Of a stretch of DNA of 32,543 bases, positions 1 through 19,430 are shown piece by piece. The position numbers were made by a program, and so were the translations under genes. The notes below the pieces were generated by a model. The model was not told the DNA's origin and did not search any database. It was given only the letters and a program-made list of their open reading frames with translations. The number at the start of each line of letters is the position of its first letter. Within the stretch, counting starts at the first letter, position 1. This DNA comes from Microcoleus sp. GA_180221_E-2-1-MAG-45_12 (GTDB taxonomy: Bacteria; Cyanobacteriota; Cyanobacteriia; Cyanobacteriales; JAAUUE01), in assembly GCA_020692245.1 (NCBI GenBank), contig JAIMKT010000046.1, positions 1 to 32,543 of the forward strand, written 5' to 3'.

Positions 1-222
1 TATCAGTTATCAGTTATCAGTTATCAGTTATCAGTTACTCGTACTGAGTGTAGCCAAAGTATCAGTTATTAGGAGGTAAAGGAGGTAAGGGGAGATACAG
101 GGAGGTAGAGGCGATACAGTTATCAGTTACTCGTACTGAGCGGAGTCGAAGTATCAGTTATCAGTTGTAAGCTCTTAATGTTTACTGTTTACTGTTCACT
201 GTTCACTGTTCACTGTTTACTG
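1..222. repeat. Block of three short tandem-repeat families
   Basis: Five exact copies of the heptamer TATCAGT fill 1-35. A 12-bp string ACTCGTACTGAG follows at 37-48 and recurs at 129-140, each followed by a related tail and more TATCAGT units. Between them, about 64-115, lies a GGAGGTA-rich array of roughly 10-bp units, the same family as the arrays at 15791, 16527 and 16738. From 181 to 222 there are six copies of the heptamer TTTACTG/TTCACTG. These are STRR-type repeats, common in cyanobacterial intergenic DNA. The third array overlaps the last codons of mntC. There are no spacers of constant length, so this is not CRISPR. Confidence 0.9.
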
Positions 223-12233: not shown

Positions 12234-13585
12234 AAATCGCCGTAAAACCTATGCGCTTTAGTCGTGGGATATAAGGCGGGTTAGCGTAGGCACGTAGCCA
12301 ACCAATACTACCATGATAGTACACATCTTATGATAAACTTGCTATCATAAGAACATGATTACACTTGAGTTTAAAACCTACGGTAAACTTCCCCAATTCA
12401 GTGCCATTGACGAGGCAATTCGTACAGCCCAATTTGTACGGAATAAATGCTTGCGTTTGTGGATGGATGGGGAAGCTAAAACCTGTTTTGACCTCAACAA
12501 ATATACAAAGGTTCTTGCTGAAGAGTTTGATTTTGCTGACAAGCTCAACTCAATGGCAAGACAGTCTAGCGCTGAAAGAGCTTGGGCTGCGATTACTCGT
12601 TTCTACGAAAACTGCAAAAAGAAGATTTCCGGTAAAAAAGGATATCCTCAATTTCAGAAAGACTGTAGATCGGTAGAGTATAAAACTACCGGATGGAAAC
12701 TAGCTCCTGACAGAAAATCAATCACCTTTACCGATAAACACGGGATTGGCAGATTGAAGATGAAGGGAACTCGTGATCTTAACTTTTACCAGCCTGAACA
12801 AATCAAGCGGGTAAGGCTAGTTAGACGGGCTGATGGTTACTATGTCCAGTTTTGTATCCAAGTAGATCGGAATGAAGTAATCGAACCTACTCACAGAACC
12901 ATTGGTTTAGACGTAGGTTTAGAGAGCTTCTATACTGATTCCCTTGGCAACAAAGTAGAGAATCCTAGATTCTACCGAACTGGTGAGCGGAAACTTAAAA
13001 AGTCACAACGGAGGGTTTCCAAGAAAGTAAAAGGCTCTAGCAATAGAAGAAAAGCTAGAACTCATCTAGGAAAAGTTCACCTCAAAATAAGTAGGCAGCG
13101 TAAAGACCATGCTGTAAAATTAGCACGGTGCGTAATCACGTCTAACGATGTTGTCGCCTACGAAGATTTGAGAATTAAGAACATGGTCAAGAATCACTGC
13201 CTAGCTAAATCCATTAATGATGCTGGGTGGTATCAGTTTAGAGTTTGGCTAGAGTATTTTGCCAAGGTGTTTAAGCGGGTAACTATTGCCGTCCCCCCGG
13301 CTTATACATCTCAGCAATGCTCTATCTGTGGCGTAATTGTGAAGAAATCTTTATCTACTAGAACTCATATTTGTCAATGTGGATGCAAATTAGACAGAGA
13401 TCACAACGCTGGTATTAATATCCTTAACTCAGGGTTGGGTACAGTAGGACATACTGGAACCTTTGCACTAGATGCAAGCAACGCTTCTGGAGATGTGACC
13501 TCTACTTTGGTTGGAGTAATCCAGTCAGGGCAAGTCGTATCTATGAAGGAAGAATCCCACGCTCTTTAGACGTGGGAGTGTCAAA
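12234..13585 (+). mobile_element. IS200/IS605-type element with tnpB only (IS1341-like)
   Basis: The left end is proposed near 12238: CCTATG (12248-12253) pairs with CGTGGG (12263-12268) using two G-T pairs, inside an outer stem CGCC (12238-12241)/GGCG (12275-12278). The right end has CCCACG (13556-13561) pairing with CGTGGG (13571-13576), followed by AGTGTCAAA, the usual kind of right end in this family. Both subterminal hairpins share CGTGGG. There is no tnpA, so transposition would need an enzyme in trans. No target duplication is expected. Exact ends are uncertain by about 10 bases. A hairpin-forming AT-rich stretch with TATGATA/TATCATA lies just before the tnpB start. Confidence 0.8.
12355..13569 (+). 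CDS. tnpB: RNA-guided endonuclease TnpB
   Basis: TnpB is a compact Cas12-related nuclease that uses a guide RNA made from the right end of its element, and favours retention of the element. The 404 residues appear complete. RuvC-I is at D186 (TIGLDVGLESFY), RuvC-II at E270 (VVAYEDLRIKNM) and RuvC-III in DRDHNAGINIL (347-357). A zinc ribbon has Cys322, Cys325, Cys340 and Cys342 in CSICG and CQCGC. All key residues are present, so it is likely active. The ATG lies in AAGAACATG after a hairpin. The stop codon (13567-13569) falls in the loop of the right-end hairpin, so the last residues ESHAL are encoded by the element end itself. Confidence 0.95.
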   Translation: MITLEFKTYGKLPQFSAIDEAIRTAQFVRNKCLRLWMDGEAKTCFDLNKYTKVLAEEFDFADKLNSMARQSSAERAWAAITRFYENCKKKISGKKGYPQFQKDCRSVEYKTTGWKLAPDRKSITFTDKHGIGRLKMKGTRDLNFYQPEQIKRVRLVRRADGYYVQFCIQVDRNEVIEPTHRTIGLDVGLESFYTDSLGNKVENPRFYRTGERKLKKSQRRVSKKVKGSSNRRKARTHLGKVHLKISRQRKDHAVKLARCVITSNDVVAYEDLRIKNMVKNHCLAKSINDAGWYQFRVWLEYFAKVFKRVTIAVPPAYTSQQCSICGVIVKKSLSTRTHICQCGCKLDRDHNAGINILNSGLGTVGHTGTFALDASNASGDVTSTLVGVIQSGQVVSMKEESHAL

Positions 13586-15442: not shown

Positions 15443-15784
15443 ATGCCTAGATTGTTAATAAATTCACCAGAAAATATAACCAAAAATCTACTCAAAACTC
15501 CTATGGCACTTACTCAAGCAGAAATTACAGAATTGGCAAGACAGTTACCCCCTAGCTGGTCGGTAGTAGAAAAAGAATTGCAGTGCGATCGCAAGTTCCC
15601 CGATTTTGTGACAGCGATGAATTTTGTCAACCAAATCATTGCTCCAGCAGAAGCAGCGGCTCATCATCCAGATCTATATATTTCCTACAACAAAGTAAAA
15701 ATCACCCTCACTACCCATGATGAAGGAGGTTTAACCCAGAAGGATTTCGACTTAGCCAAAATCATCGCTGACCTCCCAAACTAA
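15443..15784 (+). CDS. Pterin-4a-carbinolamine dehydratase
   Basis: The enzyme dehydrates 4a-hydroxytetrahydropterin to recycle pterin cofactors; in bacteria without aromatic hydroxylases its role is less clear. The family signature is visible: AEAAAHHPDLYISYNKVKIT (catalytic His-His-Pro) and TTHDEGGLTQKDFDLAKII. The start is uncertain. ATG 15443 gives 113 residues, but the extra 20 (MPRLLINSPENITKNLLKTP) are not seen in the family as I know it, and ATG 15503 (MALTQAEITELARQLPPSW) gives a typical 93-residue protein. Neither has a clear ribosome site. A decamer array begins seven bases after the stop. Confidence 0.9.
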   Translation: MPRLLINSPENITKNLLKTPMALTQAEITELARQLPPSWSVVEKELQCDRKFPDFVTAMNFVNQIIAPAEAAAHHPDLYISYNKVKITLTTHDEGGLTQKDFDLAKIIADLPN

Positions 15785-15790
15785 AATCTC

Positions 15791-15838
15791 GTACCTCCCT
15801 GTACCTCCCCTTACCTCCCTGTACCTCCTATACCTCCT
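15791..15838. repeat. TACCTCC decamer array upstream of the lplA-like gene
   Basis: Units of 10 bases: GTACCTCCCT, GTACCTCCCC, TTACCTCCCT, GTACCTCCTA, then TACCTCC. The segment 15802-15829 is the exact reverse complement of 16544-16571, a perfect 28-bp inverted repeat enclosing the lplA-like gene. CCTCC equals the anti-Shine-Dalgarno core. Confidence 0.93.
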
Positions 15839-15846
15839 TCTTCCTC

Positions 15847-16572
15847 ATGTTCCTCCGAGTCATTCCCCCCCTCCGAGCTAATGGTCAAAGGCAAATGGCG
15901 ATCGACCTCTGGCTCCTCAATCAGCTAAATCAACAGATCGATCGAGGTTTCACCCCCAATCCGGTTCTCCGGTTCTACACTTGGTCAAAACCAACCATTT
16001 CCCTTGGTTATCATCAAAAATCCTATCCCGATCATTGGGCAGGAATTGACTCTGTAGACATTGTGCGACGACCCACCGGAGGCAGGGCGGTGTTACATGA
16101 CGGGGATTTGACCTATGCCGTAATTATGCCCAGTTCGGGGAAGACTCATCGAGATAGCTATTGTGAGATTTGTCGATTTTTGGTGCAGGGATGGCGATCG
16201 CTGGGCAGAGAATTAACTTTTGGTTCAGCAGGCAAGGGTTATATTCACAATCCTAGTTGTTTTGGAACAGCCACGGCAGCAGACCTGATTACCACGGATG
16301 GTGAGAAATTTATCGGCAGCGCCCAACTCCATCGGGGTCATGGCATCCTTCAACACGGCTCTATGCTCCTGAATATCAATCAAGCTCTATTCACAGAAAT
16401 TTTCGCTACTCCTGCCCCCAATCCCCCCAAGGTTTCGATCGACCCAGAAATCATTACTACAACTCTCACCCAAGCTGCCAGTAACTGCTTTGGTCTAGAA
16501 ATTCTGTCGCAATCATTGTCGGAGAAGGAGGTAGAAGAAATAGAGGAGGTACAGGGAGGTAAGGGGAGGTAG
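15847..16572 (+). CDS. Lipoate-protein ligase A family protein
   Basis: The protein belongs to the BPL/LplA/LipB cofactor-transferase fold. It shows the family segments LRFYTWSKPTISLGYHQ, VRRPTGGRAVLHDGDLTYAV and the EKFIGSAQLHRGHGILQHGS strand with the lysine (K in EKFIG) that contacts the lipoyl/octanoyl-adenylate. The length of 241 is in the range of single-domain ligases or amidotransferases. It may attach lipoate or octanoate to lipoyl domains of pyruvate dehydrogenase or glycine cleavage H protein; which reaction is uncertain. The ATG is eight bases after a TACCTCC array and lacks a ribosome site. The last residues EEVQGGKGR and the stop are encoded by the GGAGGTA array, so the C-terminal tail is repeat-derived. 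Confidence 0.85.
   Translation: MFLRVIPPLRANGQRQMAIDLWLLNQLNQQIDRGFTPNPVLRFYTWSKPTISLGYHQKSYPDHWAGIDSVDIVRRPTGGRAVLHDGDLTYAVIMPSSGKTHRDSYCEICRFLVQGWRSLGRELTFGSAGKGYIHNPSCFGTATAADLITTDGEKFIGSAQLHRGHGILQHGSMLLNINQALFTEIFATPAPNPPKVSIDPEIITTTLTQAASNCFGLEILSQSLSEKEVEEIEEVQGGKGR
16527..16571. repeat. GGAGGTA decamer array at the end of the lplA-like gene
   Basis: GGAGGTA occurs at 16527, 16545, 16555 and 16565, the last three at an exact 10-base period. The array encodes the protein's last nine residues and its TAG stop. 16544-16571 is the perfect inverse of 15802-15829. Each unit is a full Shine-Dalgarno sequence on the + strand. Confidence 0.93.
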
Positions 16573-16737
16573 AGAATGAGGAGAAAGAAGAAGGTCATGA
16601 GTTAGGATTTTGGGGCATGTTTGGGGGAAATATTGGGACTGTTTACGATCGCAGGATAATTTGCAATCAAGATAAAATGTCTCCACAGCTAAATACAAAT
16701 TACCATCACCATCTTTCCACCTAAAAATAATTCCTAA

Positions 16738-16794
16738 ACTCCCTCTACCTCCTTTACCTCCCCTTACCTCCTTTACCTCCCTTTACCTCCTTCT
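16738..16794. repeat. TACCTCC array at the end of alaS
   Basis: Same family as the arrays at about 64, 15791 and 16527, here with mixed 9- and 10-base spacing. On the alaS strand it reads GGAGGTAAAGGGAGGTAAAG and encodes the last residues GGKGR and the TAA stop (16773-16775). A 23-base stretch is identical to the inverse of part of the array at 64-115. Confidence 0.9.
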
Positions 16795-19430
16795 CCTAAT
16801 CTCTCCTTCGCTAAAGCCAATGCTTCTGGCAACTTACCGACATCCTTACCGCCAGCTTGAGCTAGGTTGGGGCGACCACCACCACCACCGCCGCAGAGTT
16901 TGGCAATTTCTCCTACTAGTTTTCCGGCTTGAATACCTTTTTGATTTAGCTCTGGACTGAGGGCAGCGACAAAGTTGATCTTATCTGGTTCTGGGATGGA
17001 AGCCAGCACCACCGCCCCTTGACCCAGCTTTTGCAGGAGACGAGTCGCCGCAGCTTTCAGGGATTCGGCATCGGTGTCTCCCATTTGAGCAACTAGGATC
17101 GAGAGACCATCGATCGAGTCCACCTGTTGCAGGAGTTGATCGGATTGGAGGATTGCCATTTCCTGTTTTAGGGTTTCTAGTTGCTTCTGGGCTGTTTTTA
17201 ATTCTGCTTGGAGATTGCTGACCCGTTGGGGTAATTCCTCTGGTTTTGCCTTAAAGCGATCGCCCAATTCTCGGACTACTTGCTCCCGCACTTGCAGATA
17301 ATCTAACACTGCTGCCCCTGCCACCGCTTCGATCCGCCGGATGCCTGCGGCAATGCCTGTTTCCCCAATAATCTTAAAGACCCCAATTTCCGCCGTATTA
17401 TCCACATGAGTTCCACCACAAAGTTCCATGGAAACTCCCGGATAATCGACCACCCGGACTTCGGCTCCGTACTTTTCCCCAAACATAGCGATCGCTCCCT
17501 TCGCCTTGGCAACATCAATGGGCATCACTTCCACTTGGGCGGGATGGGCTTCACTAATCCAAGTATTCACCAAGTCTTCAATAGTTTGTAATTCCTCGGT
17601 TGTTACGGATCTGGGCAGATTAAAATCAAACCGGAGGCGATCGAAATCTACTAGAGAACCTGCTTGGGAAATGCCGGGATCAACAATTTTTCGCAGGGCA
17701 GCCTGTAATAAATGGGTAGCTGTATGGTTTGCCATAGAACGACGGCGACAAGCTCGATCGACCACCGCCATCACTTCCTTGCCAGTTTCCAGAGTCCCCC
17801 GCTCCACGACTCCCAAATGGATAAATACTCCCGCTTGTTTTTGGACGTTTGTAATCCTCACAAAGAGAACTGATCCCGGATTTTCCTGCCCCGAATTTTG
17901 GTTAGGAATCAAAGCCCCGCGATCGCCAATCTGTCCCCCCGATTCTCCGTAGAAAGGAGTGCGATTCAGGATAATTTGTACCTGTTCCCCTACGGTTGCC
18001 GTACTTACAGGCTCTCCCGCTAACAAAATTGTCTGTACCAAGGCCGGGCTACCTAGATCTGTATAACCAAGAAACTCCGTTGCCTTGATCCCCATTTGTT
18101 CTAGGGATTGGTGGGCGGTTAGATCAATCACCTCGTGGGCAGACTGCGATCGCTCCCTTTGCTTCTCCATTTCCACGGCAAAGCCCTCAGTATCCACCGT
18201 TAACCCTTGCTCCTCGGCAATTTCTTGGGTCAATTCTAAGGGAAACCCGTAGGTGTCGTAGAGGATAAAAGCATCAATTCCAGAGATTACCTGCTCAGAT
18301 TTAGCAATAATTTCTGTGAGTAACTTTTCCCCCCGCTCCAAGGTTTCTAAAAATCTCGCTTCTTCCCGAGCCAACTCATTTTTCACCACCTGCTCCCGTT
18401 CCCGAATTTGGGGATAGGCTCCTTCTCCGAGGGCGATCGCTGTCTCTGCAACTTGGGTAATAAAAGCCGTGGTGATCCCCAGTAACCTGCCGTGGCGCAC
18501 CACCCGCCGAATTAATCTGCGGAGAATATAGCCCCGCCCTACATTTGCTGCCGTAATCCCGTCTGTAATCATCTGCACCACCGATCGCACATGATCCCCG
18601 ATCACCTTCAAGGAAACTTTTTCACTCTCTGAAGCTTGGCTGTAGTCAATTTGGGCAAGGTCGGCAGCTTTGGCAATGATGGGGAAAATTAGGTCAGTTT
18701 CGTAATTATTGGGAACTCGTTGCAGAATCTGCGCCATCCGCTCCAAGCCCATCCCCGTATCAATATTTTGCTTTTCTAGGGGCGTGAGATGACCATCCGC
18801 ATCCCGGTTGTACTGCATGAAAACAAGATTGTAGAACTCAATAAACCGAGTATCATCCTCTAAATCAATGTGTGCATCTCCTAGCTCTGGATGAAAATCG
18901 TAATAAATTTCTGAGCAAGGACCACAGGGCCCCGTCACCCCCGAAACCCAAAAATTATCCGCCTCATCCATACGCTGAATCCGGTGGGCAGGAATGCCAA
19001 TTTGATCCCGCCAGATGGCAAAGGCTTCGTCATCTTCCCGAAACACGCTGACTACTAATCTTTCTGGGGGTAATCCATAGACCTGGGTTGACAGTTCCCA
19101 AGCGTAGGCGATCGCCTTTTCCTTGAAATAATCCCCAAAGCTAAAATTCCCCAACATCTCAAAAAAAGTATGATGGCGGGCGGTGCGTCCCACATTCTCA
19201 ATATCATTGGTGCGGATACACTTCTGTGCAGTAGTGGCTCTCAGAAATTCGGCTCGGCGTTGCCCCAAGAAAATTGGCTTAAACTGCAACATCCCGGCAA
19301 TAGTTAACAACACTGTCGGATCTTCGGGGACAAGGGAAGCACTAGGCAAAATCTCATGCCCCCGTTGAGCATAGAAATCGAGGAATTTGTGCCGAATTTG
19401 GCTGCCAGTCAGAAATGGGGGAACAGTCAT
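16773..19430 (-). CDS. alaS: Alanyl-tRNA synthetase
   Basis: AlaS charges tRNA-Ala and clears mischarged Ser and Gly. The class II catalytic core starts at SQIRHKFLDFYAQRGHEILP, with PTVLLTIAGMLQFKPIFLG and the FFEMLGNFSFGDYFK segment. The tRNA-recognition region covers roughly 240-450. The editing domain has its zinc-binding residues in NHTATHLLQAALR and ELCGGTHVDNTAEIG. The C-terminal C-Ala domain ends with the glycine-rich LCGGGGGGRPNLAQAGGKD. At 885 residues it is full length. The terminal GEGGKGR is made by the repeat array at 16738-16794 and probably replaces the native last residues. The gene converges on the lplA-like gene; the 200 bases between them carry no strong terminator. Confidence 0.97.
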   Translation of the reverse strand: MTVPPFLTGSQIRHKFLDFYAQRGHEILPSASLVPEDPTVLLTIAGMLQFKPIFLGQRRAEFLRATTAQKCIRTNDIENVGRTARHHTFFEMLGNFSFGDYFKEKAIAYAWELSTQVYGLPPERLVVSVFREDDEAFAIWRDQIGIPAHRIQRMDEADNFWVSGVTGPCGPCSEIYYDFHPELGDAHIDLEDDTRFIEFYNLVFMQYNRDADGHLTPLEKQNIDTGMGLERMAQILQRVPNNYETDLIFPIIAKAADLAQIDYSQASESEKVSLKVIGDHVRSVVQMITDGITAANVGRGYILRRLIRRVVRHGRLLGITTAFITQVAETAIALGEGAYPQIREREQVVKNELAREEARFLETLERGEKLLTEIIAKSEQVISGIDAFILYDTYGFPLELTQEIAEEQGLTVDTEGFAVEMEKQRERSQSAHEVIDLTAHQSLEQMGIKATEFLGYTDLGSPALVQTILLAGEPVSTATVGEQVQIILNRTPFYGESGGQIGDRGALIPNQNSGQENPGSVLFVRITNVQKQAGVFIHLGVVERGTLETGKEVMAVVDRACRRRSMANHTATHLLQAALRKIVDPGISQAGSLVDFDRLRFDFNLPRSVTTEELQTIEDLVNTWISEAHPAQVEVMPIDVAKAKGAIAMFGEKYGAEVRVVDYPGVSMELCGGTHVDNTAEIGVFKIIGETGIAAGIRRIEAVAGAAVLDYLQVREQVVRELGDRFKAKPEELPQRVSNLQAELKTAQKQLETLKQEMAILQSDQLLQQVDSIDGLSILVAQMGDTDAESLKAAATRLLQKLGQGAVVLASIPEPDKINFVAALSPELNQKGIQAGKLVGEIAKLCGGGGGGRPNLAQAGGKDVGKLPEALALAKERLGEGGKGR

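Follow-up and report, generated by a model that had tools for sequence, protein, structure and literature searches.

Each arm of the inverted repeat around the lplA-like gene of Microcoleus sp. GA_180221_E-2-1-MAG-45_12 is very probably a member in its own right of an STRR family that is dispersed and restricted to the genus; the polarity of this family at gene edges brings the two arms into inverted orientation. The pair most likely has no lplA-specific role. The window analysed here comprises positions 1 to 32,543 of contig JAIMKT010000046.1; it was compared with the rest of the genome and with a sister species, a Coleofasciculaceae cyanobacterium MAG (87% complete).

A script check of the sequence agreed with an earlier note on this DNA, which had described an exact 28-bp inverted repeat at this gene: 15802-15829 (TACCTCCCCTTACCTCCCTGTACCTCCT) and 16544-16571 are perfect reverse complements of each other. 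When mismatches are allowed, the arms grow to 15799-15832 and 16541-16574 (34 nt, 94%). The array holding the left arm lies in the gap that separates the pterin-4a-carbinolamine dehydratase gene from lplA, and its last unit ends at 15837, nine bases ahead of the ATG at 15847. The right array overlaps the 3' end of lplA and, as the note had also claimed, contains the stop codon (TAG, 16570-16572). A third array (16746-16790) overlaps the alaS stop and is complementary to the right array too (29 nt, 83%). This third array and a further one at 72-107 were absent from the earlier note. Heptamer STRR arrays of the TATCAGT and TTACTGT types are found beside the latter at the contig start (1-37, 152-166 and 175-225). 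The coordinates are collected in the table.

Table. Features of the window around lplA and further arrays of the family.
Feature	Position	Strand	Remarks
Pterin-4a-carbinolamine dehydratase gene, upstream neighbour	15443-15784	+	Pfam; ends 7 nt ahead of left array
Left STRR array	15792-15837	+	five TACCTCC cores, 9-10-nt spacing; TACCTCC in lplA sense
Left arm of exact 28-bp inverted match	15802-15829	+	same 28-mer 10 times in genome
LplA-like gene, 241 aa	15847-16572	+	lipoyl/biotin ligase A/B catalytic domain, Pfam LplA-B_cat, E 1.3e-24
Right STRR array	16527-16571	-	four GGAGGTA cores in lplA sense
Right arm of exact 28-bp inverted match	16544-16571	-	exact-match check
Third TACCTCC-family array	16746-16790	+	five TACCTCC cores on + strand, i.e. 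GGAGGTA in alaS sense
alaS (alanyl-tRNA synthetase), convergent neighbour	16773-19430	-	Pfam
Further TACCTCC-family array in window	72-107	-	beside heptamer STRR arrays

Matches to LplA homologues in other cyanobacteria start at residues 1-5 and mostly stop near residue 232. It follows that the lplA start codon is credible and that the right array encodes the final ~15 residues (...EVEEIEEVQGGKGR). The C-terminal ...EGGKGR of AlaS is encoded by the third array, and the stop-overlapping arrays (16527-16572, 16773-16790) give two unrelated proteins one C-terminal tail, GGKGR in both LplA and AlaS; the tail of the sister LplA reads GGTGR. Elsewhere in the window, an OrfB_IS605/TnpB-type gene with a Cas12f1-like TNB domain (12355-13569) lies between the seryl-tRNA synthetase gene and a pentapeptide-repeat gene.

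The repeat unit is a seven-base core, TACCTCC or GGAGGTA depending on the strand, followed by a spacer of 2-3 nt, which results in a period of 9 or 10. When all 132 contigs of the genome (4.2 Mb) were scanned for two adjacent units, 112 forward and 84 reverse matches were obtained, 196 together, versus 1 match for the reversed-pattern control. The sister genome gave 162 and 106 (268 matches), and the other 118 of the 120 genomes sampled from the order gave at most 6 each. The family is thus a genus-restricted amplification, abundant only in this genus among the 120 genomes sampled. Array structure was examined in sampled stretches for 74 arrays of this genome and 50 of the sister; the loci of this genome were picked for holding arrays, which should leave orientation unbiased but makes conservation figures unusable as rates. 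The earlier assignment to STRR-type arrays agrees with the genome-wide dispersal of this tandem family: short head-to-tail units recur at many places (196 versus 1; 74 arrays examined), the arrays are mainly intergenic, and unit number varies between relatives. Classical cyanobacterial STRR sequences are heptamers, e.g. of the CCCCAGT type; they share dispersed intergenic tandem arrays and variable unit number with the present family, whose period of 9/10 makes it STRR-like in the broad sense only. Four is the commonest unit number in both species (28/74 arrays here, 18/50 in the sister). Two arrays within long open frames are common to both species and differ in unit number (L140/L206, 4 versus 10; L164/L222, 4 versus 5). 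The nonamer form ACCTCCTTT (15792-15837, 16746-16790) resembles the 3' tail of 16S rRNA, which makes its opposite strand AAAGGAGGT a full Shine-Dalgarno complement; this may be coincidence.

Within such a family, the exactness of the lplA match loses its weight. The same 28-mer occurs ten times in this genome and nine times in the sister, and of the 2701 pairs that can be formed from the 74 arrays, 137 (5.1%) share 28 or more consecutive nucleotides. In unrelated DNA such a match would go far beyond chance. Between two family members it does not, given how frequent the 28-mer is and that 5.1% of pairs match to this length. The family is dominated by a small number of arrangements of few unit types, and two arrays therefore often agree exactly over 28 nt. 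TACCTCC arrays were also seen inside blocks of TAACTGA heptamers with the recurring junction CAGTTATCAGGGAATAGGAGGTA (L137, L164, L192, L193 and L219, from this genome and the sister), which hints that composite TACCTCC/TAACTGA blocks are copied.

The inverted orientation of the arms follows from the way in which arrays lie at gene ends, taken here from a simple codon-based caller with some of the genes checked by Pfam. Of the arrays no more than 80 nt from the closest gene end, those before starts had TACCTCC in sense in 26 cases and GGAGGTA in none, while after stops GGAGGTA was in sense in 30 and TACCTCC in four. The sister showed the same polarity (20:0 at starts, 16:1 at stops). The left lplA array is itself one of the four exceptions after stops, since the upstream stop, at 7 nt, is closer to it than the lplA start, at 9 nt. 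Most arrays are intergenic and tight against one gene end, and the abutting gene lies nearly always on the 5' side of the array, as read on the GGAGGTA strand, whether it presents its start or its stop. On this strand the closer ORF was the 5' one in 59/66 arrays of this genome (p=2e-11) and in 34/37 of the sister (p=1e-7), the statistics treating arrays as independent although some arrays of the two species are orthologous. Median distances to the 5' and 3' ORF are 12 versus 140 nt here and 18 versus 193 nt in the sister. Because the repeat faces outward at either end of a gene, a gene flanked by two arrays necessarily has them as an inverted pair. With ~35-45 arrays of each kind and ~4000 genes (a number estimated from genome length), chance would give 0.3-0.5 such doubly flanked genes per genome, and one, lplA, was seen. 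An exact inverted pair bracketing one gene had been called unusual; given the genome-wide polarity, an inverted pair arises automatically wherever a gene has arrays on both sides.

Opposed arrays across one intergenic region were found six times in this genome's sample (L141, L160, L173, L174, L187 and lplA/alaS), against a rough expectation of ~0.5, so that array placement is not fully independent. The recurrence of such pairs ~100-400 bp apart would suit a small mobile element that carries its cargo between such arrays as terminal inverted repeats. Paired-array interiors, however, showed no meaningful similarity except between orthologues, and most arrays are single, which makes a mobile element exceedingly improbable.

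The sister species retains all three local arrays in the same places and orientations, with different unit numbers. Its lplA is not inverted; gene orientation is unchanged. Its right arm has changed by substitution with no compensating change in the left arm, and the longest exact match between its arms is 21 nt. Unrelated positions in relatives, together with missing covariation between the arms, had been named as signs of chance expansion of one repeat family: the positions turned out to be conserved, but covariation between the arms was not found. The earlier proposal that the arms could drive inversion of the gene starts from the perfect 28-bp inverted arms, between which recombination would flip lplA. 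An invertible switch would be expected to occur in both orientations and to have dedicated repeats absent elsewhere, yet in the one sister genome neither the gene nor any of the three arrays is turned round, and the 28-mer, with its ten copies, is present at eight other genome sites. Pfam hits in the adjacent genes examined included no recombinase, which also counts against recombination between the arms, a reading that we regard as next to impossible.

Pairing at the level of the mRNA was considered as well, in which the CCUCC leader of lplA would bind the GGAGG trailer and thereby hide the leader or make the transcript circular. Leader and trailer are indeed strongly complementary, in line with the pairing that the note had proposed; the cis duplex is predicted at -83 kcal/mol (-71 in the sister), random leader-trailer pairs average -61.5 kcal/mol, and both arrays are kept in the sister. 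Yet a duplex at least as strong is predicted for 9.7% of random array pairs, and the sister pair is unremarkable, being matched or beaten by 31%. The sister arms lack compensatory change and match exactly over no more than 21 nt, the right array can pair with the nearer alaS array as well, and other repeat families have the same polarity. The notion of a dedicated cis pair thus found no backing, and functional pairing is very unlikely. Neither gene-specific mRNA circularisation nor DNA inversion is supported. The left array forms a pyrimidine-rich leader beside the start codon, and lplA takes its stop codon and a short, new C-terminal extension from the right array.

The polarity itself has a published precedent. 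GGGNATC heptamer repeats of Xanthomonas and Nostoc sp. PCC 7120 are dispersed and mostly intergenic, and their G-rich strand lies antisense up to 50 bp upstream of ORFs or sense up to 50 bp after stops (Rehm et al. 2015, PMC4692102). Their mean distance is 28 nt to the 5' ORF and 160 nt to the 3' ORF, four units are commonest, two Xanthomonas genomes hold 70 and 75 convergent pairs, and some repeats overlap stop codons; quadruplex-related roles were discussed and no function was assigned (PMC4692102). The TACCTCC family resembles these repeats in that the G-rich strand abuts the 5' ORF whatever the ORF direction (59/66 and 34/37), in its distances (28/160 nt as averages there, 12/140 nt as medians here), in the mode of four units (28/74, 18/50), in opposed pairs and in overlap with stop codons. 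It differs in its core, GGAGGTA instead of GGGNATC, in its 9/10-nt unit instead of a heptamer, in its abundance in one genus only, and in that the four GGG tracts of a quadruplex are present in few arrays (7/74, 8/50); moreover, repeats free of G-runs obey the rule in the same genome. TAACTGA direct repeats of Beggiatoaceae and cyanobacteria lie just upstream of starts in one orientation and occasionally reversed after a stop (MacGregor 2015, PMC4679880). They share this placement with the present family and occur in this genome also, beside TACCTCC arrays, but their unit and period are different and they have forward-frame stop codons, of which TACCTCC has none.

Several causes of the polarity were considered and set aside. 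Local composition or a seed bias does not account for it, as array-free leaders (503) and trailers (388) showed no strand bias (purine ~0.5), and TACCT in array-free leaders was found 40 times in sense and 43 times in antisense. Stop codons within the units were rejected because TAACTGA and TACCTCC differ in them and have identical polarity. An enrichment of TAG stops beside 3' arrays (20/43 versus 239/638) is too small to rely on.

Repeats of unrelated sequence follow the same rule. In this genome and the sister, it holds for TCAGTTA (23/27) and ACAGTGA (18/19), neither of which has G-runs. It is also followed in two other genera (TCAGTTA 23/28 in one, ATAGTTA 7/7, GGGGATT 11/11, ACTGGGG 13/14), with TCAGTTA being weak in the second of them (G004) alone (7/10). 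Because few TACCTCC arrays have at least four GGG tracts (7/74 here, 8/50 in the sister) and G-run-free repeats obey the rule, quadruplex formation is unlikely as the cause. Selection at the RNA level, purging GGAGG from leaders as a stray Shine-Dalgarno or quadruplex sequence and favouring pyrimidine-rich leaders for S1-type initiation, competes as a cause of the polarity, not as an account of what the arms are. It would explain why the 80 nt upstream of starts are free of GGAGG-sense arrays and why many arrays end at the ribosome-binding position, and it accords with the translational role proposed for TAACTGA repeats (MacGregor 2015, PMC4679880) and with the quadruplex effects discussed by Rehm et al. 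(2015, PMC4692102). It leaves the near-absence of CCTCC-sense arrays after stops unexplained, however, and two further points speak against it: arrays with four or more GGG tracts are scarce, and TCAGTTA and ACAGTGA, which are neither Shine-Dalgarno-like nor rich in G-runs, adhere to the rule. We therefore regard RNA-level selection as possible but doubtful.

As repeats of unrelated sequence share the polarity, we infer that it originates at the DNA level rather than in selection for leader-trailer pairing. A rule common to unrelated units and to both gene ends is more simply read as a matter of array placement or growth than of translation or pairing; the polarity may arise if STRR cassettes are placed, or grow, in one direction against the constrained gene edge. 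Degenerate units are found more often at the ORF-distal side of an array (62 versus 21 here, 39 versus 19 in the sister), and with available room controlled the asymmetry was 13 versus 2, with few informative arrays left; one-sided array growth is suggestive only. That one shared directional DNA process places unrelated repeats of cyanobacteria, and of Xanthomonas, with the same strand outward, the lplA pair being its by-product, is put forward tentatively.

Array turnover between the two species, as gain or loss, was seen directly in this two-species comparison. At the 3' end of a leuB-like gene (name read from sequence), a 39-bp array at the stop codon is present here and absent in the sister. 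For 20/20 sister arrays without a counterpart in the sampled array loci of this genome, the flanking gene is present here. Several of these sites are array-free, e.g. L192_3849, L192_8340, L217_10761, L200_12178 and L219_4776. At others, the array is shorter or degenerate (L198, L202, L203, L204, L212). Two sister contigs (L200 end, L223 start) end at STRR blocks flanking a site that is empty in this genome; the repeats probably break the sister assembly there.

No description of TACCTCC 9/10-mers was found in the STRR literature searched. New are the non-heptameric, genus-restricted family and the repeats without G-runs that obey the same rule; the polarity itself was already published (Rehm et al. 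2015). The lplA locus as such is ordinary, and the wider polarity rule across mostly non-quadruplex repeats weakens the quadruplex explanation. The spread and orientation of STRR arrays, an old question, thereby becomes testable across genomes.
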